Below are positions 18,476 to 44,424 of a stretch of 44,424 bases of DNA, one piece after another. The DNA comes from a virus, in IMG/VR virus record IMGVR_UViG_3300021076_000006, positions 1-44,424 of that record; one strand, 5' to 3'. The notes under the pieces were generated by a model, which was given only the letters and a program-made list of their open reading frames with translations, ran no database searches and was not told the DNA's origin. Position 1 is the stretch's first letter. Each line of letters begins with the position of its first letter. Position numbers and translations under genes: made by a program.

Positions 18476-18872
18476 TTGCGCAGTTGCTTCAAAGAAATGT
18501 ACGGAGGGACGGAGTACGGAGGGAGGTTTTTGAGACCCTGTACACTTTGCGAAAGTAGTAATAAGTACCCTACTTGTTACTACTTTCTTCATCCAGTGCT
18601 TATATAGTAACTCTGTATTCTCCTTCTGTATTTATTATATATTATTAATATTTTATTTAACTACTATACTAAGAAACAGCTACAGAATGCGGGTCGTAGG
18701 CTTATTCAAAGTACGGAGGGAGATAGTTGTCAAAGTACTACTCCCTCCGTACTTCTGTAATTTCCATGTTGCAGCGCACAATAAATAATTAACACTCTGA
18801 CAACGGAGTACGGAGGGAGAAACAACTTCCTGCCGTACCGGCACGGAAGCTGCCGCAAAATGAAATGAGTCC
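18476..18872. repeat. Long repeat copy A: iterons and AT-rich core, candidate origin
   Basis: About 397 bp, repeated at 39302-39698 in the same orientation with ~97% identity. It contains GTACGGAGGGA(G) at 18499-18509, 18514-18525, 18711-18722 and 18808-18819 on the plus strand, and inverted at 18741-18752. The third site and the inverted site form a 14-bp perfect dyad. Between them lies a ~75-bp AT-rich tract (18600-18670, with TTTATTATATATTATTAA). Iterons plus an AT-rich unwinding-like tract fit a replication origin. The location between divergent operons also fits a shared control region. No convincing ORF is present in 18369-18934. Confidence 0.7.
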
Positions 18873-21195: not shown

Positions 21196-21237
21196 TTAAC
21201 CGGGGCTTCGGACCAAGCTACGACAGGAGCTAAACAA

Positions 21238-21825
21238 ATGAAAACCACATTAAACAAGATCAGAGAGCACAGCCCTTGCGCTGAGGGTTGGGAAAAGCTA
21301 CTGCGCACATTGGGTAAAACGAAAGCAGACAACGAACCCGTCTCCGTCGTCCAGATTCTGGACAGCAACGGATTCGATGATGCGTTGTGGTGTTTGCGTG
21401 CGGTAGAAGGTCATGAACGCGAGATTAGGCTTTATGCGGTCTGGTGCGCTAGGCAGGTGCAACATTTGATGACAGACCAACGCAGCATTAACGCACTTGA
21501 CGTTGCTGAACGCTTTGCAAATGGGGAAGCAACCTATCAAGAGTTAATTGCTGCGTATGAGGCTGCGTATGAGGCTGCGTATGCTGCTGCGGGTGCTGCT
21601 GCGCGGGCTGCGTATGCTGCTGCGTGGGCTGCTGCGCGGGCTGCGGATGCTGCGCGGGCTGCGGATGCTGCGTGGGCTGCTGCTGCGGGTGCGCGGGCGG
21701 CGTGGGCTGCTGCGGATGCTGCGGATGCTGCGGATGCTGCGGATGCTGCGGATGCTGCGGATGCTGCGCAGGAACGCGAATTGCGCCGTGTTTGTGAACT
21801 GGTTGAACAGGAGTTGAACAAATGA
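21238..21825 (+). CDS. Alanine-rich repeat protein, copy 1
   Basis: 195 aa. Residues 1-100 are a conserved domain (MKTTLNKIREHSPCAEGW, QILDSNGFDDALWCLRAVEG, REIRLYAVWCARQVQH) also found in copy 2. Residues ~101-178 are a tract of Ala-Ala dipeptides separated by Tyr, Trp, Arg, Asp or Gly, with six perfect ADA repeats at its end. The C-terminus RRVCELVEQ is conserved in copies 1 and 2. Similar phage proteins exist, some labelled putative immunity proteins, but no function is established that I can name. The tract length differs in every copy. It overlaps the RusA-like gene by 4 bp. Confidence 0.8.
   Translation: MKTTLNKIREHSPCAEGWEKLLRTLGKTKADNEPVSVVQILDSNGFDDALWCLRAVEGHEREIRLYAVWCARQVQHLMTDQRSINALDVAERFANGEATYQELIAAYEAAYEAAYAAAGAAARAAYAAAWAAARAADAARAADAAWAAAAGARAAWAAADAADAADAADAADAADAAQERELRRVCELVEQELNK
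21542..21770 (+). repeat. GCTGCG-based minisatellite in alanine-rich copy 1
   Basis: Interrupted GCT/GCG codon repeat with TAT, TGG, CGG or GAT every third codon. It ends with six perfect 9-bp GCGGATGCT units at 21712-21765. All reading frames are open across it, which produces spurious ORFs on both strands. Confidence 0.9.
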
Positions 21826-22184
21826 ACTCGACTACACTAACGCTACCGTTTCCGCCATCAATGAACAGGCTTTACCGGGCAGTGTGTGGGCGGGTTGTGC
21901 TGTCCAAGGCGGCTAGGGAGTGGGGCATCGCAGCAAAAAACAAGCTGCCATCTGGCAAGGTCAAGCCCTTAACAGGCAGATTAGACGTTCTAATTGAGTT
22001 GCTGCCTCCGAAACGCTTGCAAGGCAAAGCGTGGGACATCGCAAATAGAGAGAAAGTGTTGTGTGACCTACTGACCAAGCAGCGAATCTGGCTAGATGAT
22101 TCGCAAATTGACCGCATCCTGATCATTCGCGGCAATCCAGTAAGCCGCGATGGCGCAGCAGTTGTTCACATAAGGGAGTTGTAA
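21822..22184 (+). CDS. RusA-like Holliday junction resolvase
   Basis: 120 aa. The opening LPFPPSMNRLYRA matches the RusA fold, followed by a WD72-IAN75-REK78 block and W-L-D92-D93-SQID. In E. coli RusA the catalytic acids are in DLDN and DDxQ; here the second Asp of DLDN is Ala (A74) while the Lys and the DDSQ acids remain. Resolving branched replication intermediates before packaging is the expected role. It follows the alanine-rich gene with overlap. Confidence 0.8.
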   Translation: MNSTTLTLPFPPSMNRLYRAVCGRVVLSKAAREWGIAAKNKLPSGKVKPLTGRLDVLIELLPPKRLQGKAWDIANREKVLCDLLTKQRIWLDDSQIDRILIIRGNPVSRDGAAVVHIREL

Positions 22185-28350: not shown

Positions 28351-28491
28351 TCAATTGTCAGGGCAGACAGACTGTTTCATGTCGTACAAGTCAATCTTGA
28401 TTTGCACGTACTTAGCGATGCCGTCAGCAATGCTGGGTTGTCCGTAAAACAACAACATGCCCAGCAGCACGACAATAAGCGCTTTGTACAT
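28351..28491 (-). CDS. Very small signal-anchored protein
   Basis: 46 aa (MYKALIVVLLGMLLFYG then a polar tail ending in VCPDN). The N-terminus is a membrane anchor or signal peptide. The start overlaps the previous stop (TAATG) with AGGAGC upstream, so translation is likely. It is the last gene of the accessory cassette. Function unknown. Confidence 0.55.
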   Translation of the reverse strand: MYKALIVVLLGMLLFYGQPSIADGIAKYVQIKIDLYDMKQSVCPDN

Positions 28492-28793
28492 TATTTAAGC
28501 TCCTTGTATCTGCCGGTAATCCCATGAGCAGCTTCGATATCGCGGAATAGATCAGCGAAACTAGCGCCTGGCGTTCGATCCCGCGTTGCGTAAATGCTTG
28601 CAATTTGCATTTCGTTCAAGGGCTCCCGCTTCACGCTGGCAATGGCCTGCTCTGCGTAGGCGCGCACCTTTTCTTCACCCCAAGCATCCCTTGATTCGAC
28701 AATGTCAGCTTGCATGCCGCGAATCAGCTTGTGGCCAACGACGACTTCACATACTCCGTCGGGCTCCGGCAGAGGTGGTAACTGGTGGCTCAT
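28491..28793 (-). CDS. Hypothetical accessory protein
   Basis: 100 aa from the ATG at 28793 (GGAG upstream; another in-frame ATG five codons earlier has no ribosome site). It starts MSHQLPPLPEPDG, a Pro-rich opening common in small phage accessory proteins, followed by helical charged sequence. It belongs to the cassette inserted among baseplate genes. No function can be assigned. Confidence 0.65.
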   Translation of the reverse strand: MSHQLPPLPEPDGVCEVVVGHKLIRGMQADIVESRDAWGEEKVRAYAEQAIASVKREPLNEMQIASIYATRDRTPGASFADLFRDIEAAHGITGRYKELK

Positions 28794-28801
28794 GGGGACT
28801 C

Positions 28802-28915
28802 CTACCATTTTAAAGTAACGTTGTTTTCATCGAATTCCAGATGCCCCGACCAGACGCCGAGCAGAATCAATAGAATTCCCAGACAGAATCCAGTAGCTAT
28901 CAAGGCGATTCCCAT
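28802..28915 (-). CDS. Tiny membrane protein
   Basis: 37 aa (39 from a GTG at 28921 that overlaps the previous stop as GTGA). One membrane span (IALIATGFCLGILLILLGVW) and a short acidic tail. It fills the gap between two cassette genes exactly, which supports its being real. Function unknown. Confidence 0.5.
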   Translation of the reverse strand: MGIALIATGFCLGILLILLGVWSGHLEFDENNVTLKW

Positions 28916-28917
28916 AA

Positions 28918-29868
28918 TCACTTTCCCGCCTCCTTAGCCGCGATAGCTGCGTCGATGGCTGCACGCCATTGATCCGGCGTCCAGCGCTCTTTCATTCCTT
29001 TGAAATATTGCTTCATAAAATCAGTGCACTTAACTCTGTCGGGCCTGAAGTACCAGTCAAATCGCTCGCTGTCCTTCGCGTCTGTGAATGGCAGGGCGCT
29101 GGCGAGCTTGTCGATGTGGTCTGCGATCTGTCCCGCCAGGCGCCCAGGAATCATCACCAGATCGCCACCAGCGCGGCGACGAAGCCATGCGCTGATGTTT
29201 CCCTTCGCGGCATCGTCGGACGCGTCTACCGGCTCCGCACTTACAGGCGCAGGGTGTTCTTTCTGGTAAGCCTCGTATTCGGCAACAACAGCCGCAAGCT
29301 TTTCTTGATAATTACGGAGTCCGGTTTTCAACCACTCCACTTCATCAACGCCATTCACAGTGGCACTTACAGGCGCTGGAGGGGCGGCTTCCTCGATGAC
29401 TCGTAGTGATTCCAACCATGGACAATTCGCGCTGCTGTGCTCGCCGATTTCTTCGCCGAAATATTGGCTAATAGCGTCCGCCAGCTTGTCCGCAATTTCG
29501 GCATTGTAGTCGCGCTCACGCAAAGCTTGATCCCACAACTTGTCATCGCTTGGGCGCATTTCATATGCCGGAATTGCTCGCCATTTCCCTGCGCCATGGA
29601 TGTTGTGTTCCGATATGGCATCATTGATGTGCTCTTGTGCTTCGTCGTGAGTAGATGTGACGAATTCAGGGTTGCCATTTTTGTCAACGATGACAAATGC
29701 GAATGCCACCGGCTCCGCGCTCCCCACGGCGGCGCGCTTGGCGGCAAGCCATGCGTTGAACATGAATGACTCTGTGGCGCTGTAAGGCGGCTCTTTCTTT
29801 AGCGCGGTTTCATCACTAAAAAACCAGTCGTGAAACTCCCGGCGCTCTTGTTCAATGTTCAGTGTCAT
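28918..29868 (-). CDS. Accessory hypothetical protein (Ea-type mosaic)
   Basis: 316 aa. The N-terminus REFHDWFFSD, later FMFNAWLAAKRAA and AEPVAFAFVIVDKNGNPEF, and a C-terminal W-x-PDQWRAAIDAAIAA resemble modular early/accessory proteins of temperate phages, which shuffle such pieces. Ala/Pro linkers (AAPPAPVSA, HPAPVSAEPV) separate the modules. It has no catalytic motif. It overlaps its upstream neighbour by 4 bp. Confidence 0.7.
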   Translation of the reverse strand: MTLNIEQERREFHDWFFSDETALKKEPPYSATESFMFNAWLAAKRAAVGSAEPVAFAFVIVDKNGNPEFVTSTHDEAQEHINDAISEHNIHGAGKWRAIPAYEMRPSDDKLWDQALRERDYNAEIADKLADAISQYFGEEIGEHSSANCPWLESLRVIEEAAPPAPVSATVNGVDEVEWLKTGLRNYQEKLAAVVAEYEAYQKEHPAPVSAEPVDASDDAAKGNISAWLRRRAGGDLVMIPGRLAGQIADHIDKLASALPFTDAKDSERFDWYFRPDRVKCTDFMKQYFKGMKERWTPDQWRAAIDAAIAAKEAGK

Positions 29869-30026
29869 GGTTTGCTTTCTGTAGTCGGGCGATTCGGAGT
29901 AACCTGACTATCCTGCGTTGCCTCAATGATCGCTCGCAGCTTGTGCATGTAGTCCATATAGATGTTTTCTCCATGCTCATAGCGCAAGCGGTCATGAATC
30001 CATTGTAGGAATTGTTTGTCGGTCAT
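29865..30026 (-). CDS. Small hypothetical protein
   Basis: 53 aa (starting MTDKQFLQWIHDRLRYEHGE). It has a strong GAGGAG site and a leader (GGAGTAAATAATGAC) almost identical to that of the next upstream gene. Its end overlaps the 316-aa gene by 4 bp (ATGA). Helical and charged; function unknown. Confidence 0.65.
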   Translation of the reverse strand: MTDKQFLQWIHDRLRYEHGENIYMDYMHKLRAIIEATQDSQVTPNRPTTESKP

Positions 30027-30029
30027 TAT

Positions 30030-30872
30030 TTACTCCTCGGAGTCAAGAACGGCCTGTAAGCCATTACTGTCAGAATCGGATAGATACCAACGGTTCGTGT
30101 TCATTTTTTCTACGCACCCTGGAATGCAATTACCTACAGATGCATACCCACATTGTTTGCTAGATGGCGCTTGTCCCTTCTTACCTTCTTGTGCCCGTTC
30201 AACACCAAGCTCATAGCCGATCTGGTAAGCCTCGCCATGTTCTGGGTCGCCATGTGGTGTACGCGATAGGTCCAGTCCATCCTGCTGCAAGCCGTGGCCG
30301 ATGCCAGATTCATAAGCATCGCAAATACCAAAGATGTCCCTGCGGCGTGCTGGCGCTTGTTCCTGCGGTGCGGCGGCGAGCATACGCTTGATGTCTGCGA
30401 TTGTTTTATCGGTTTCGATGACATCTTTCTCGGGGACGTATCCGAGATTGCGGAATTGCAGGAGGTGCAGCAAACCAGCGACACGCGCGCGCAGCAGCAA
30501 ATCCGCCACTACCGGCTTCGCCTCTTGGCGAGGTGCTGCAACTCCGTTGGAATACACCAGAGGCGCGGGAGTATCGACTAGAGACGCTTTCTGAAAATTT
30601 TGTGGAATGGATGCTTTCAAGATTTCTCCAAAATTGCATTGCGTCCCAATTTCTGTTTGCGTAAATTTAGCTACCGGCGTCTCTGCTGCTGGCGGTGCTG
30701 ATAGAAGCAGGTACGAGCAGGTAATGTGCCAGCGGTTTAGGTCGATTACGTCTACATCGACGCGGCCGGTACGCTCTGCGAATTCGATTGCCGATTTGAT
30801 CGCATCACGCAATTCACGGACTGCCTGCTCATCCGTTACTTGCGGCGCTGCTGTTTGTTCTTTGTTTGTCAT
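30030..30872 (-). CDS. Accessory hypothetical protein, mosaic
   Basis: 280 aa, strong AGGAG site. Modules: N-terminal EQAVRELRDAIKSAIEFAER, a middle segment with IADIKRMLAAAPQEQ, then a C-terminal DAYESGIGHGLQQDG with HGEAYQIGYELGVERAQ and a Cys-containing end (CGYASVGNCIPGC). As in its downstream neighbour, Ala/Pro linkers separate pieces. Such proteins vary widely between related phages. No function can be assigned. Confidence 0.65.
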   Translation of the reverse strand: MTNKEQTAAPQVTDEQAVRELRDAIKSAIEFAERTGRVDVDVIDLNRWHITCSYLLLSAPPAAETPVAKFTQTEIGTQCNFGEILKASIPQNFQKASLVDTPAPLVYSNGVAAPRQEAKPVVADLLLRARVAGLLHLLQFRNLGYVPEKDVIETDKTIADIKRMLAAAPQEQAPARRRDIFGICDAYESGIGHGLQQDGLDLSRTPHGDPEHGEAYQIGYELGVERAQEGKKGQAPSSKQCGYASVGNCIPGCVEKMNTNRWYLSDSDSNGLQAVLDSEE

Positions 30873-30895
30873 TATTTACTCCTGATGTTGGTAGA

Positions 30896-31225
30896 TCAAA
30901 ACGGGCAATCGCCCTTTACTGGGGCAGCTACTTCGAACGGCATGTCGCTATCTTTTACACCTTGCCGCTTTAACTGGTTGTACGGTCCTCGCGGGTTGTT
31001 GTCGCAAAACGGGTGCGTCGTGCGATGCGGATACGTGCCGTCCTTTCCTACTACGTTGCGGCAGTAGCACAAACCCCGCCGATTATATTCTCTGCCTTCC
31101 AGCCGCCACCCCGACACTGTGTTGCACACTTCACAGGCTGGCGGCCTGAGATATTCGTCGGGGTGCCGTTTACTGACTCGGCGATGGCGACATGCGCTAT
31201 TTTTGCAACGTACTGAGTAGGTCAT
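30896..31225 (-). CDS. Cys-rich zinc-ribbon-like small protein
   Basis: 109 aa from the ATG at 31225 (a TTG seven codons earlier is in frame). It opens MTYSVRCKNSACRHRRVSKR, followed by PPACEVCNT, GWRLEGREYNRRGLCYCR and HRTTHPFC, a recurring phage small-protein pattern with Cys pairs that could bind zinc. It is the first gene after the structured leader at 31270-31440. No Shine-Dalgarno precedes the ATG, so the leader may control its translation. Confidence 0.7.
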   Translation of the reverse strand: MTYSVRCKNSACRHRRVSKRHPDEYLRPPACEVCNTVSGWRLEGREYNRRGLCYCRNVVGKDGTYPHRTTHPFCDNNPRGPYNQLKRQGVKDSDMPFEVAAPVKGDCPF

Positions 31226-31269
31226 AGTATTAAAGTGTTGGTACAACTACAGGATGACATTCCTTTAGA

Positions 31270-31440
31270 CCCCGTGCGTTAATACTGCGAGGAGTGCGCA
31301 CGGGTTTGCGCAGTTTGCAACTTCATAGTTGCACCAACACAGAAGCGGGCGGTTATAACTGCATAGGGCTATCCGCTTGCTGCAACCGGGTACGACCACT
31401 CGCTTCTATGTTGGCCCTGCGCTCTCTTACCCGGCGCAGG
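31270..31440 (-). ncRNA. Highly structured leader RNA or ncRNA candidate
   Basis: A 264-bp stretch without a credible gene, transcribed from a consensus promoter at 31477-31505. In plus coordinates: 7-bp hairpin 31416-31422/31434-31440; 14-bp helix 31334-31347/31401-31414 with one G-U; 7-bp hairpin 31316-31322/31327-31333; 6-bp helix 31284-31289/31309-31314; 8-bp helix 31271-31278/31297-31304. The last two cross, giving an H-type pseudoknot or two exclusive folds. CCGGGTA (31386-31392) also matches TACCCGG (31428-31434) in the first hairpin's loop. This density of perfect helices is not expected by chance. Class unknown. Confidence 0.65.
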
Positions 31441-31476
31441 TTTAGGTGGTACTATCGCGCTTCCAACGTTAAGCAT

Positions 31477-31505
31477 ATCTTACGATAACTTAAATTCTTT
31501 GTCAA
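31477..31505 (-). promoter_or_regulatory. Consensus promoter of the structured RNA and accessory cassette
   Basis: Minus strand: TTGACA (31500-31505), 17-bp spacer, TAAGAT (31477-31482). It lies right after the spike gene stop and is one of the best sigma-70 matches in the window. Transcription would start near 31470. Confidence 0.85.
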
Positions 31506-31510
31506 GCACT

Positions 31511-32299
31511 TTAACCGGTCATGTTGCCGGTATTACCCGAACCGGTTTGTACGCCGCCGTGGATATGATTGTTCACGCTGCCGTTTGGCACGATGACATC
31601 CGGCACGGTGATCGGGCTAGCAAACGAGAACTTGCCTGAACCCGTTGCGGTGCCGCTAATCGTGTTGTTGAACGTGGTTGGCGCGTTGACCACTAGCTGC
31701 GACGCGTTGACCGTTGTTGTACTTGCTGACGTAGTGGCAATTGTCGAGCCAGCTTGCAACGTCAGCGAACCCCCCGCGTTGAGTGCGATGTTGCCCGTCG
31801 CGTTCAAGTTGATATTGCCGGGTGAGACAATGTTAATGCCTGCCGCGCTGGCGAGGAATTGAACGTACTGTGTCGGTGCGCCGTTTAAAAAGCCGCCGAG
31901 GTACAACCCATCAGCGGTGCTGAATACGCGGTCGGTAGACGCAGGGCTAGGTTGCAACGTACGCTTAATCGTAGTGATGTCTTTTTGCGCGTAAAGTGCT
32001 ACGCCGATGTCCCCGACCACTGGGTCTAAGATGATCGCAGATACGCCACCCTGCATGCGCATGTAGGGCACGTTGTATGCTGGGCTTTGATCGAGCACGA
32101 TGCTGTTCGTATCTACATCTAACACCATGGGCTGCACAGTGACAAACCCGACACGATCCGCCACCGGATTGACCGCCTGTACTTGCACCAATTCTGCGGT
32201 GTTGATCGTGCCGCGCAGTAACGACAAGATGACGTACTCTTGCGACCGGTCCTGATCGAACTGCGCCTCGAACGGGAAACTAAATGGGGTGTTGCTCAT
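31511..32299 (-). CDS. Baseplate spike protein (gp138/gpV-like)
   Basis: 262 aa. An N-terminal OB-like domain (~residues 30-125, ending in GDIGVALYAQKD) is followed by a beta-helical repeat region (INIVSPGNINLNATGNIALN, GGSLTLQAGSTI). The tip ends in NNHIHGGVQTGSGNTG with the His-x-His pattern that binds metal in membrane-piercing spikes. It is the central spike under the hub. It overlaps the gene upstream by 4 bp. Confidence 0.85.
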   Translation of the reverse strand: MSNTPFSFPFEAQFDQDRSQEYVILSLLRGTINTAELVQVQAVNPVADRVGFVTVQPMVLDVDTNSIVLDQSPAYNVPYMRMQGGVSAIILDPVVGDIGVALYAQKDITTIKRTLQPSPASTDRVFSTADGLYLGGFLNGAPTQYVQFLASAAGINIVSPGNINLNATGNIALNAGGSLTLQAGSTIATTSASTTTVNASQLVVNAPTTFNNTISGTATGSGKFSFASPITVPDVIVPNGSVNNHIHGGVQTGSGNTGNMTG

Positions 32300-33492: not shown

Positions 33493-33582
33493 TCAGCCCA
33501 GTTTAACCGCTAGCCACGACAGGAGCAAATAGCCGAAAAGCGCTAGTGTCAGGTCGAACATGCCTTGTAAGAACTTCTTCAT
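33493..33582 (-). CDS. Tiny membrane protein
   Basis: 29 aa, with a Lys-Lys start and one membrane span (LTLALFGYLLLSWLAV). It has a strong GGAGG site, and its ATG overlaps the upstream stop (TAATG), so translational coupling is likely. Function unknown. Confidence 0.55.
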   Translation of the reverse strand: MKKFLQGMFDLTLALFGYLLLSWLAVKLG

Positions 33583-33869
33583 TATTCAACCTCCGGTTGA
33601 TCGAGCATCCAATCGATCCAAGCTAGCCGGTCTAGCCTGACAGTACGTTGAGCATCATAACCGTTTGCACGCTGCCAATTTTCGAGGTACACGTGCGGCG
33701 CTAGCGCATCACGGATATAGCGACTAAGTCGAACTTCCACAGCCATGCAGTAATAGCCACGATGTACGGCAGCGGTCACTATTGCTAAACAAATGTAAAA
33801 TTCTTCACCGCTTTCGATCAGTTCTCTCGCAGCAATTAGCAGCTCCCGCTCGATCTTACTCAACGCCAT
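33582..33869 (-). CDS. Hypothetical protein in the baseplate cluster
   Basis: 95 aa from the ATG at 33869 (AGGAG upstream; an in-frame start 19 codons earlier overlaps the promoter). N-terminal helix (IERELLIAARELIESG), then ICLAIVTAAV and aromatic sequence with AWIDWMLDQPE at the end. I do not recognise it. It has its own strong promoter, unlike its structural neighbours, so it may be expressed at a different time. Confidence 0.65.
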   Translation of the reverse strand: MALSKIERELLIAARELIESGEEFYICLAIVTAAVHRGYYCMAVEVRLSRYIRDALAPHVYLENWQRANGYDAQRTVRLDRLAWIDWMLDQPEVE

Positions 33870-33897
33870 GACGTTCTCCTGTTGTAAGTGTGCATCT

Positions 33898-33926
33898 ATC
33901 TTACGAAAACGTAACGGCAATGTCAA
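33898..33926 (-). promoter_or_regulatory. Consensus promoter downstream of the tape measure gene
   Basis: Minus strand: TTGACA (33921-33926), 17-bp spacer containing TTACGTT, TAAGAT (33898-33903). The same -35, -10 and TCG before the -10 occur in the promoter at 31477-31505. Confidence 0.85.
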
Positions 33927-37308: not shown

Positions 37309-37619
37309 TGCACGAAACTGTGTGCGATGTAGCCAAACAACAAGCCCAAACCCGCCCGAACCACGATGGCGCACATAACTTGAACGACGCTACGTCCTGC
37401 GTCAACTGCTACGTGCTGCGCAAACAGAAACCGAAACCCGAGAGCTACGCACCCCGCAATCAGAGGATTGACAGAAACGGGGTAAAACGGCACCACAAAC
37501 CATTTCAGATAGAGCGGCAATACCGTGCCGTAGGTAAGTACAAAAAAACCGCACACTGCGCCTAAGTCGAGTAATTCACTAGTGATATGCTTGATTCGTG
37601 TTTTTGTAGTCGCGTTCAT
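37305..37619 (-). CDS. Membrane protein, about three spans
   Basis: 104 aa with hydrophobic segments near residues 17-38, 48-66 and 75-99. It overlaps both neighbours by 4 bp: alanine-rich copy 2 upstream and tail chaperone downstream. A membrane protein here is not part of the usual tail module, so it may belong to the accessory unit with the 70-aa gene and the alanine-rich gene. Confidence 0.7.
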   Translation of the reverse strand: MNATTKTRIKHITSELLDLGAVCGFFVLTYGTVLPLYLKWFVVPFYPVSVNPLIAGCVALGFRFLFAQHVAVDAGRSVVQVMCAIVVRAGLGLLFGYIAHSFVQ

Positions 37620-38167
37620 TTTGTATGCCCCTGTTCAACCAGTTCACAAACCCGGCGCAGTTCGCGTTCCTGCGCAGTCTGCGCAGTGGCCTGCGCAGGA
37701 GCAGCAGCCCGCGTAGCAGCCCGCGTAGCAGCCCACGCAGCCCACGCAGCATGCGCAGCAGCAGCCCCCGCAGCAGCAGCAGCCCGTGCAGCAGCATCAC
37801 CCGCAGCCCGCGCAGCATCCGCAGCATTCGCAGCAGCAGCCCACGCAGCAGCAGCAACTAACCCTTGATGGGTTGCCTCACCATTTGCAAAGCGTTCAGC
37901 AACGTCAAGTGCGTTAATGCTGCGTTGGTCTGTCATCAAATGCTGCACCTGCCTAGCGCACCAGACCGCATAAAGCCTAATTTCGCGTTCATGACCTTCA
38001 ACAGCGCGCAAACACCACAACGCGCCATCTAATCCGTTGCTATCCAGAATCTGAATGACGGAAACGGGTTCATCATCTGCTTTCGTTTTACCTAGTGTGC
38101 GCAGCAGTTTTTCCCAACCCCCAGCGCAAGGGTGGCACTCTCTGATCTTGTTTAATGTGTTTTTCAT
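37616..38167 (-). CDS. Alanine-rich repeat protein, copy 2
   Basis: 183 aa. Residues 1-100 are ~90% identical to copy 1 (MKNTLNKIRECHPCAGGW, QILDSNGLDGALWCLRAVEG). The Ala tract (~101-165) has a different order and length, with Trp, Arg, Asn, His and Thr spacers, and lacks the ADA array of copy 1. The C-terminus RRVCELVEQ is kept. The leader CACAACAGGAGCTAAACAAATG matches the other copies. It lies in the tail operon but is preceded by its own promoter and the 70-aa gene. Confidence 0.8.
   Translation of the reverse strand: MKNTLNKIRECHPCAGGWEKLLRTLGKTKADDEPVSVIQILDSNGLDGALWCLRAVEGHEREIRLYAVWCARQVQHLMTDQRSINALDVAERFANGEATHQGLVAAAAWAAAANAADAARAAGDAAARAAAAAGAAAAHAAWAAWAATRAATRAAAPAQATAQTAQERELRRVCELVEQGHTK
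37665..37860 (-). repeat. Alanine-codon minisatellite in copy 2
   Basis: Interrupted GCA/GCC/GCT-type repeat on the minus strand with no strictly repeated unit longer than about 9 bp. It is the variable part that distinguishes copy 2 from copies 1 and 3. Confidence 0.8.
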
Positions 38168-38188
38168 TTGTTTAGCTCCTGTTGTGGT

Positions 38189-38401
38189 TTATGCGCAATA
38201 ACGAGAAAAAACCAACGCGAACGACTTGCAAATTTCTTGCGCTACTTCGCTGTGGGCGCTGCTGGCATCTGCTGCGACCATTTCTACAAAGCACCGCAGT
38301 AAATCGTCTTCGCGTCCGTGTGCCGCCTCAGGGTCGGCATCGCCGATTAGCGCTATCTTCGCCACTTCCCTGTGCGCCTTTTCAATTGTAAGTTGTTCCA
38401 T
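38189..38401 (-). CDS. Small conserved phage protein
   Basis: 70 aa, helical and acidic (IEKAHREVAKIALIGDADPE, then EDDLLRCFVEMVAADA), a type seen in other phage accessory regions. It is first gene after the promoter at 38431-38459 and has the CACAACAGGAGCTAAACATG leader shared with the alanine-rich genes. Function unknown. Confidence 0.7.
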   Translation of the reverse strand: MEQLTIEKAHREVAKIALIGDADPEAAHGREDDLLRCFVEMVAADASSAHSEVAQEICKSFALVFSRYCA

Positions 38402-39301: not shown

Positions 39302-39698
39302 TTGCGCAGTTGCTTCAAAGAAATGTACGGAGGGACGGAGTACGGAGGAAGGTTTTTGAGACCCTGTACACTTTGCGAAAGTAGTAATAAGTACCCTACT
39401 TATTACTACTTTCTTCATCCAGTGCTTATATAGTAACTCTGTATTCTCCTTCTGTATTTATTATATATTATTAATATTTTATTTACCTACTATACTAAGA
39501 AACAGCTACAGAATGCGGGTTGTAGGCTTATTCAAAAGTACGGAGGGAGATAGTTGTCAAAGTACTACTCCCTCCGTACTTCTGTGATTTCCATGTTGCA
39601 GCGCACAATAAATAATTAACACTCTGACAACAGAGTACGGAGGGAGAAACAACTTCCTGCCGTACCGGTACGGAAGCTACTGCAAAATGAAATAAGTC
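39302..39698. repeat. Long repeat copy B: iterons and AT-rich core, candidate origin
   Basis: Second copy of the element at 18476-18872, same orientation, ~97% identical, with one inserted A. Iterons: 39325-39335, 39340-39351 (one mismatch), 39538-39549 and 39635-39646 on the plus strand, and inverted at 39568-39579. It fills the divergent gap between the minus-strand baseplate genes and the plus-strand terminase operon. It lies 20.8 kb from copy A, nearly opposite it on a ~44.6-kb circle. The 520-bp interval 39254-39773 holds no other credible gene. Confidence 0.7.
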
Positions 39699-44309: not shown

Positions 44310-44329
44310 ATTACACTCGTTCAACCAGT

Positions 44330-44424
44330 TCACAAACCCGGCGCAGCCCACGCAGCTTCCGCAGCAGCAGCAGCAGCAGCAACTAACCCTTGATGGGTTG
44401 CCTCACCATTTGCAAAGCGTTCAG
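44330..44424 (-). CDS. Alanine-rich protein copy 3, 3' end, frameshifted
   Basis: 3' part of the minus-strand gene whose 5' end is at 1-36. The frame set by ERFANGEATHQGLV continues into only ~12 Ala-rich codons (with Glu and Trp) and then reads PGL and a stop at 44330-44332. The conserved RRVCELVEQ tail is still encoded, but in another frame that stops at 44311-44313. The tract is much shorter than in copies 1 and 2. This may be a repeat contraction that shifted the frame, or an assembly error at the contig end. Confidence 0.7.
   Translation of the reverse strand, partial: ERFANGEATHQGLVAAAAAAAEAAWAAPGL

Follow-up and report, generated by a model that had tools for sequence, protein, structure and literature searches.

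Translation of a leader open reading frame (ORF) is needed for the next gene in the rep leaders of IncI-type plasmids, and these leaders contain a pseudoknot. SAM-II and preQ1 are riboswitches in which an H-type pseudoknot hides a Shine-Dalgarno sequence, and the structured RNA GOLLD is known from phages. Control of repZ/repA by leader peptide and pseudoknot in IncI-alpha, IncB, and IncL/M plasmids is credited to Asano and Mizobuchi (1998) in PMC10724649, and a repB leader is described in PMC10286972. Phage PhiTE encodes a pseudoknotted RNA, pseudo-ToxI, and ToxI itself consists of repeated 36-nt pseudoknots and is partnered by a toxin (PMC3475682). Translational coupling of gene pairs via ATGA overlaps has been described (PMC6728339), as have the large structured RNAs GOLLD and ROOL (PMC12286853).

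The window analyzed here, the 44,424 nt of IMG/VR record IMGVR_UViG_3300021076_000006, is a 44.4-kb record of a tailed phage whose baseplate hub is about 50-55% identical to those of its distant relatives, the Xanthomonas phages PhiXhv/XapPhi and Burkholderia phage Bcep781. Between its spike gene (31511-32299), which carries the GpV apex motif, and a small Cys-rich gene (30896-31225), comparative sequence analysis indicates that there is a genuine folded RNA that is strongly conserved and has a promoter of its own; it is encoded on the minus strand, as are all features of the element given below. The element is apparently undescribed and apparently belongs to a narrow phage clade. The downstream gene encodes a zinc-ribbon-like protein of PHROG 17384 (function unknown), for which the AlphaFold model had a mean pLDDT of 51 and was too poor for use. 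Positions 28490-31225 are a mosaic of accessory genes between the spike and the baseplate/tail fibre genes that relatives match only piecewise, and the RNA lies at its head. Named phages and plasmids gave no relevant DNA match to the element (two plasmid matches were short and weak), the GTDB genomes contained neither a 20-mer match to it nor a relative of the downstream protein, and a literature search on the window's phage group returned nothing useful.

The same genome carries repeats elsewhere. A direct repeat of about 396 bp (18476-18871 and 39302-39698, 96-98% identical and 20.8 kb apart) includes, besides a long hairpin (GAAAGTAGTAATAAGTACCCTACTTGTTACTACTTTC), several AGTACGGAGGGAG / CTCCCTCCGTACT units; one copy sits in a gap between divergent genes, and both match a single place in the relative L089. 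These are perhaps origin iterons or a mobile repeat. Positions 21215-21841, 37600-38190, 44319-44424, and 1-58 are related copies of one repeat-rich coding stretch, with an inverted pair that is 90% alike. Parts of 37633-37899 recur in the last ~106 bases of the window, and its first 58 correspond to 38132-38189, which means that the window ends may be repeat related or an assembly break.

The first-pass annotation had proposed a consensus promoter for the RNA, and the sigma-70-like sequence TTGACA-N17-TAAGAT is indeed exact at 31477-31505 (TTGACA 31505-31500, a 17-nt spacer, and TAAGAT 31482-31477) and conserved in all homologues, with a single substitution against each across the 40-nt region 31510-31471. 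The exact pattern occurs twice in the phage genome, the second copy being at 33926-33898, against 0 expected in shuffles. Since the two copies are alike beyond their hexamers (GTTAAA..GCTTGACA..TCGTAAGATA), they seem to represent a promoter type of the phage. Judged from the position of the promoter, transcription would start near 31470. Within 33582-33926, the second copy follows the tape measure gene and precedes a small gene of PHROG 8421 (function unknown), and it too is conserved in relatives. At 5790-5850 of the homologous contig L010, the promoter region is a near-perfect palindrome of about 58 nt (GTGCTTGACAAAGAATTTAAG...CTTAAATTCTTTGTCAAGCAC), of which the window holds only a decayed version; this looks like quasi-palindrome correction.

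Three lineages in IMG/VR carry the element: that of the window, the L007 type (three near-identical contigs and one partial; L086, L089, L101, and L103), and the L010 type (the single contig IMGVR_UViG_3300049728_000011). Alignment of these homologues delimits a conserved unit, AGUACCACC...CCAACAC (31235-31453), the whole of which is spanned by the covariance model R1 used with cmsearch. The fourfold sites of the adjoining spike gene differ from the window by 23% (L007) and 25% (L010). In contrast, the 52-nt 5' module of the unit (31402-31453) is unchanged against either lineage. The 112-nt 3' module differs at 6 and 8 positions, including a cluster of four in pseudoknot loop 3 (ATTAA vs TCTTC). 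The RNA is thus under purifying selection. When conserved pieces were used in four exact-word scans of IMG/VR, the true element turned up in no contig beyond those already known, the other matches being due to chance, and the covariance model found no further member among spike-related contigs and named phages that have the downstream gene. In L011, whose spike is 67% identical, the small gene follows the spike directly without the RNA, so that the RNA was probably inserted together with its promoter.

The 5' module consists of a hairpin, CCUGCGC/GCGCAGG (31440-31434/31422-31416), and the 5' arm of a long stem, helix A, which is continuous from 31414-31402 to its 3' arm at 31346-31334 with one G-U pair. 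It is followed by hairpin B (UGCAACU-AUGA-AGUUGCA, 31316-31333), which holds the start codon AUG1 in its loop, by an H-type pseudoknot (31271-31314), and by hairpin D (AGGA-AUGUCA-UCCU, 31251-31264). The minimum free energy has a z of -3.6 to -4.0, matched by none of 200 shuffles, in ViennaRNA energies that leave the pseudoknot out of account. Loss of the helices in homologues, which the first-pass annotation had set against its own proposal, was seen in neither lineage: no substitution disrupts pairing in the 5' hairpin, helices A, B, S1, S2, or D. Changes in the 3' module sit in loops or stay paired on the minus strand only. The helix A change (U-G to U-A, in L010) and the helix C change (G-C in the homologues, G-U in the window; helix C is described below) keep their pairs on that strand and give an A-C mismatch on the plus strand. 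They support a minus-strand RNA without amounting to covariation, and no compensatory double change occurs among the three independent sequences.

The two crossing helices of the pseudoknot, S1 (31314-31309/31289-31284) and S2 (31304-31297/31278-31271), are perfect and lie exactly where the first-pass annotation had placed them. Pseudoknots of this 6+8-bp H-type arose in 8 of 300 shuffles of 31247-31510 (3%) and in 8 of 168 minus-strand tiles of the genome (5%); for 31226-31510, none of 300 shuffles reached the two H-type pseudoknots counted there. Taken alone, the pseudoknot is therefore weakly beyond chance and no more than suggestive, and it is conservation that makes the case. All of its stem positions are invariant across the homologues while loops 2 and 3 vary, so that covariation neither confirms nor refutes the stems. 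The earlier proposal of a structured RNA read from this promoter is supported by the conservation in the two other lineages, the strand-specific wobble changes, and the confinement of changes to loops. A 7-nt match that had been read as a kissing loop (31386-31392/31428-31434) is present in the window and in 1.8% of shuffles, but the longest counterparts in the two homologues are 4 and 5 bp, at the level of chance. It lies partly inside the apical domain described below, is confined to the window phage, and was rejected as not conserved. In the window, the four clustered changes of loop 3 create an 8-nt reverse-complement match (31279-31286/31226-31233) between that loop and the bases immediately preceding the next gene's ATG, absent in the homologues; it may have arisen as a templated mutation or serve to lock the start further.

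The covariance search that had been suggested for this RNA, run here with Rfam 15 (SAM-II, preQ1, GOLLD, ROOL, and others), brought no family to its gathering score, which leaves the element in no known RNA family. Weak matches in a permissive Rfam search were far under gathering and fell mostly on the L010 promoter palindrome, and a tRNA search found nothing.

Helix A is capped by a hypervariable apical domain (31347-31401), 55 nt in the window and 62 and 123 nt in homologues. The apical domains of the three phages have no detectable similarity to one another, and a search for the domain as a copy of another sequence found no match among the sequences compared. In the window and L007, helix A extends into this domain with different yet complementary bases.

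The first-pass annotation had overlooked a second long helix. Helix C pairs 31340-31326 (GUGUUGGUGCAACUA) with 31249-31235 (UAGUUGUACCAACAC) over 15 bp in the window and L007 and 14 in L010. Its 5' strand overlaps the 3' arm of helix A and hairpin B, so that it is incompatible with the lower part of the former and with the latter. Its 3' strand, UAGUUGCA+CCAACA, amounts to the 3' arm of hairpin B fused to the 5' arm of helix A, and the conservation of the unit stops exactly where this strand stops. Two mutually exclusive stems of at least 14 bp occurred in 1 of 1000 shuffles. The state with helix C differs from that with helix A by +2.6, +0.1, and +2.9 kcal/mol at 37 C in the window, L007, and L010 respectively, and by at most 4.2 kcal/mol at 15 C, a gap within 0-4 kcal/mol overall in all three phages. 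The RNA may therefore switch between a state with helices A and B and one with helix C. Because nearly all molecules are computed to be in form A at 37 C for the window and L010, such a switch would need a trigger. Helix C was also considered as an intrinsic terminator and rejected by inspection, as only UUUAAU follows it and its loop is 76 nt.

The stretch had been described as free of genes, which holds for ordinary genes and fails for two short leader ORFs, the first of them likewise overlooked. From ATG2, a mini-ORF of 12 codons (MSSCSCTNTLIL, 31222-31260) ends in a TGA (31224-31222) that overlaps the ATG of the zinc-ribbon-like gene (31225-31223) as ATGA. It is preceded, 8 nt before AUG2, by a Shine-Dalgarno-like GGGGU (31269-31273) whose best duplex of -6.2 kcal/mol is within the range of the phage's other Shine-Dalgarno sites; three of its five bases are the last three of the S2 3' strand. 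The second, in frame with ATG2, opens at ATG1 (ATG 31326) and in the window closes after 15 codons at a TAA (31279); in the homologues this frame is open to its end, giving 34 and 38 codons. The likeliest start of the downstream gene is ATG 31225, not TTG 31246, and with that start its reported lack of a Shine-Dalgarno sequence is confirmed, in the window and in L007. In both, the TGA/ATG overlap of the mini-ORF is with the zinc-ribbon-like gene. In L010, where the RNA is directly followed by an inserted P-loop gene (PHROG 14685), the same frame is 16 codons long and its TGA overlaps the ATG of that gene, at a different junction. At the two junctions, such an overlap has a probability of about 6% and 5% of arising by chance. 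In L010, L011, and six named phages (Mano, Mica, BgVeeders33, Sonora, BcepF1, and Bcep781), the zinc-ribbon-like gene starts at most 4 nt from, or overlapping, an upstream stop, with a Shine-Dalgarno sequence in some and none in others; Maja, PPpW-3, and Persinger were left out since their annotated start of this gene is elsewhere or missing.

The best reading of this arrangement, which we put slightly short of an even chance, is a cis-acting pseudoknotted leader that gates a mini-ORF coupled to the zinc-ribbon-like gene. The mRNA would start near 31470 from the phage promoter at 31505-31477, and its first ~235 nt would fold into a scaffold of the 5' hairpin, the long stem with its exchangeable domain, hairpin B, the H-type pseudoknot, and hairpin D. 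The zinc-ribbon-like gene, having no ribosome-binding site of its own, would be translated by termination-reinitiation from the mini-ORF. S2 would cover part of the GGGGU, helices A and B or alternatively C would cover the surroundings of AUG1, and helix C would additionally cover the sequence immediately before the gene start, so that translation would be gated by RNA folding. The fold of the leader would then decide ribosome loading on the mini-ORF and hence reinitiation on the next gene, with two folding states of similar energy as the gate. The promoter motif, the conservation, the mutually exclusive helices, the mini-ORF/gene overlap, and the closeness of this gene family to upstream stops are seen directly, and transcription, translation of the mini-ORF, switching, and its trigger are inferred. 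Several points count against this model, among them the lack of compensatory double changes, energies that leave out the pseudoknot, and the computed predominance of form A in the window and L010. In addition, the gene after the RNA in L010 has a good Shine-Dalgarno sequence of its own, the ATG1 frame is closed by the TAA in the window, where any regulation via ATG1 must therefore differ, and the exchangeable domain has no role in it.

Such a leader would work most like the leader-peptide/pseudoknot switches of plasmids, with which we do not class it since their long-range pseudoknot and, by a consensus scan, their antisense RNA were not found in it. As in the IncI-type rep leaders, the phage leader ORF ends at the start of its target gene, and in L010 at that of another gene. 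The plasmid pseudoknot is long range and next to the target start, whereas that of the phage is a compact local H-type at the ribosome site of the mini-ORF. A pseudoknot between a leader hairpin loop and the sequence before the start was not found, both strands falling inside 31314-31271, some 46 nt ahead of the gene start. A consensus scan found no plus-strand promoter-like site in the element from which an antisense RNA could arise, and no replication gene is involved in the phage case. Like SAM-II and preQ1, the phage pseudoknot has part of a Shine-Dalgarno-like sequence in its 3' strand, but the RNA has no Rfam match, no ligand is indicated, and the site served is that of the mini-ORF. It shares with PhiTE pseudo-ToxI that a pseudoknotted RNA is encoded by a phage; unlike ToxI, it has a single, unrepeated pseudoknot of 44 nt. 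No pseudoknot repeats of ~36 nt, as in the ToxI type III antitoxin, occur in 31226-31510, and no ToxN-like endoribonuclease was found among the neighboring proteins searched in Pfam, PHROGs, and PADLOC. The ATGA stop/start overlap is identical to that of the gene pairs in PMC6728339, in which the upstream ORF is a full gene rather than a 12-codon leader in a structured RNA. GOLLD and ROOL are structured RNAs as well, but the phage element is far smaller.

The main rival, which we consider less likely, is a stand-alone phage RNA acting in trans, a unit of ~220 nt processed from the downstream mRNA or ending before it. It would act by itself, for example by inhibiting a host factor or defence or by serving as a decoy for it, and its specificity would lie in the exchangeable domain. 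A constant scaffold whose apical domains are entirely different does look like a changing binding part. The unit has its own promoter, it is tightly constrained at positions outside any ORF, and its conservation stops sharply at CCAACAC, where L010 has its P-loop gene insert, which makes the RNA a portable unit. However, no terminator follows the unit, the start of the next gene is 9 nt past it, and a frame inside it ends precisely on that start. Where the first-pass annotation had left the choice between a regulatory leader and a stand-alone RNA, the leader is the better supported, since the mini-ORF within the element ends exactly on the next start in two gene contexts. Quite speculatively, the element may represent a new phage RNA family, in which a freely exchangeable apical domain on a fixed bistable pseudoknotted scaffold determines which host molecule or signal is recognized. 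The switch would then either make translation of the accessory gene behind it depend on that recognition or be directed in trans against the host.

It is improbable that the 3' module mainly codes for a small protein of 34-38 aa from ATG1, with folding secondary. No stop interrupts the frame before the ATGA overlap in L007 and L010, and outside one cluster the few changes in the unit are at third codon positions. Against this, the window has a TAA after 15 codons, and the 5' module is equally conserved yet outside the ATG1 ORF. A conserved protein read from this stretch had been named as evidence against the RNA; searches of Pfam, PHROGs, and phage genomes gave no match. Very improbable is a cis-acting antitermination or transcript-stabilizing element for the accessory genes, like the HK022 put sites and without translational control: its position directly after a phage promoter, heading a mosaic accessory gene block, and its sturdy hairpins would suit such a role, but no known element was matched, and the overlap with the next gene and the alternative helix would be left unexplained. 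We give almost no credence to an absence of RNA function, with the folding due to chance or the site acting at the DNA level as an inverted repeat or in recombination. Although the pseudoknot alone is only weakly above chance, and the near-perfect DNA palindrome at the L010 promoter and the exchanged apical domain show recombination here, the purifying selection, a folding z of about -4, and helix changes that fit a minus-strand RNA only all speak against it.

Structured RNAs of non-model phages are little known, and it is unusual for a fixed scaffold to carry a domain that has been exchanged entirely, a pattern open to direct testing. If the leader model holds, this locus would show how a phage can accommodate an accessory cassette under independent regulation among its tail genes, with a promoter, a structured leader, and a mini-ORF replacing the feeding of ribosomes by the upstream gene in its relatives.
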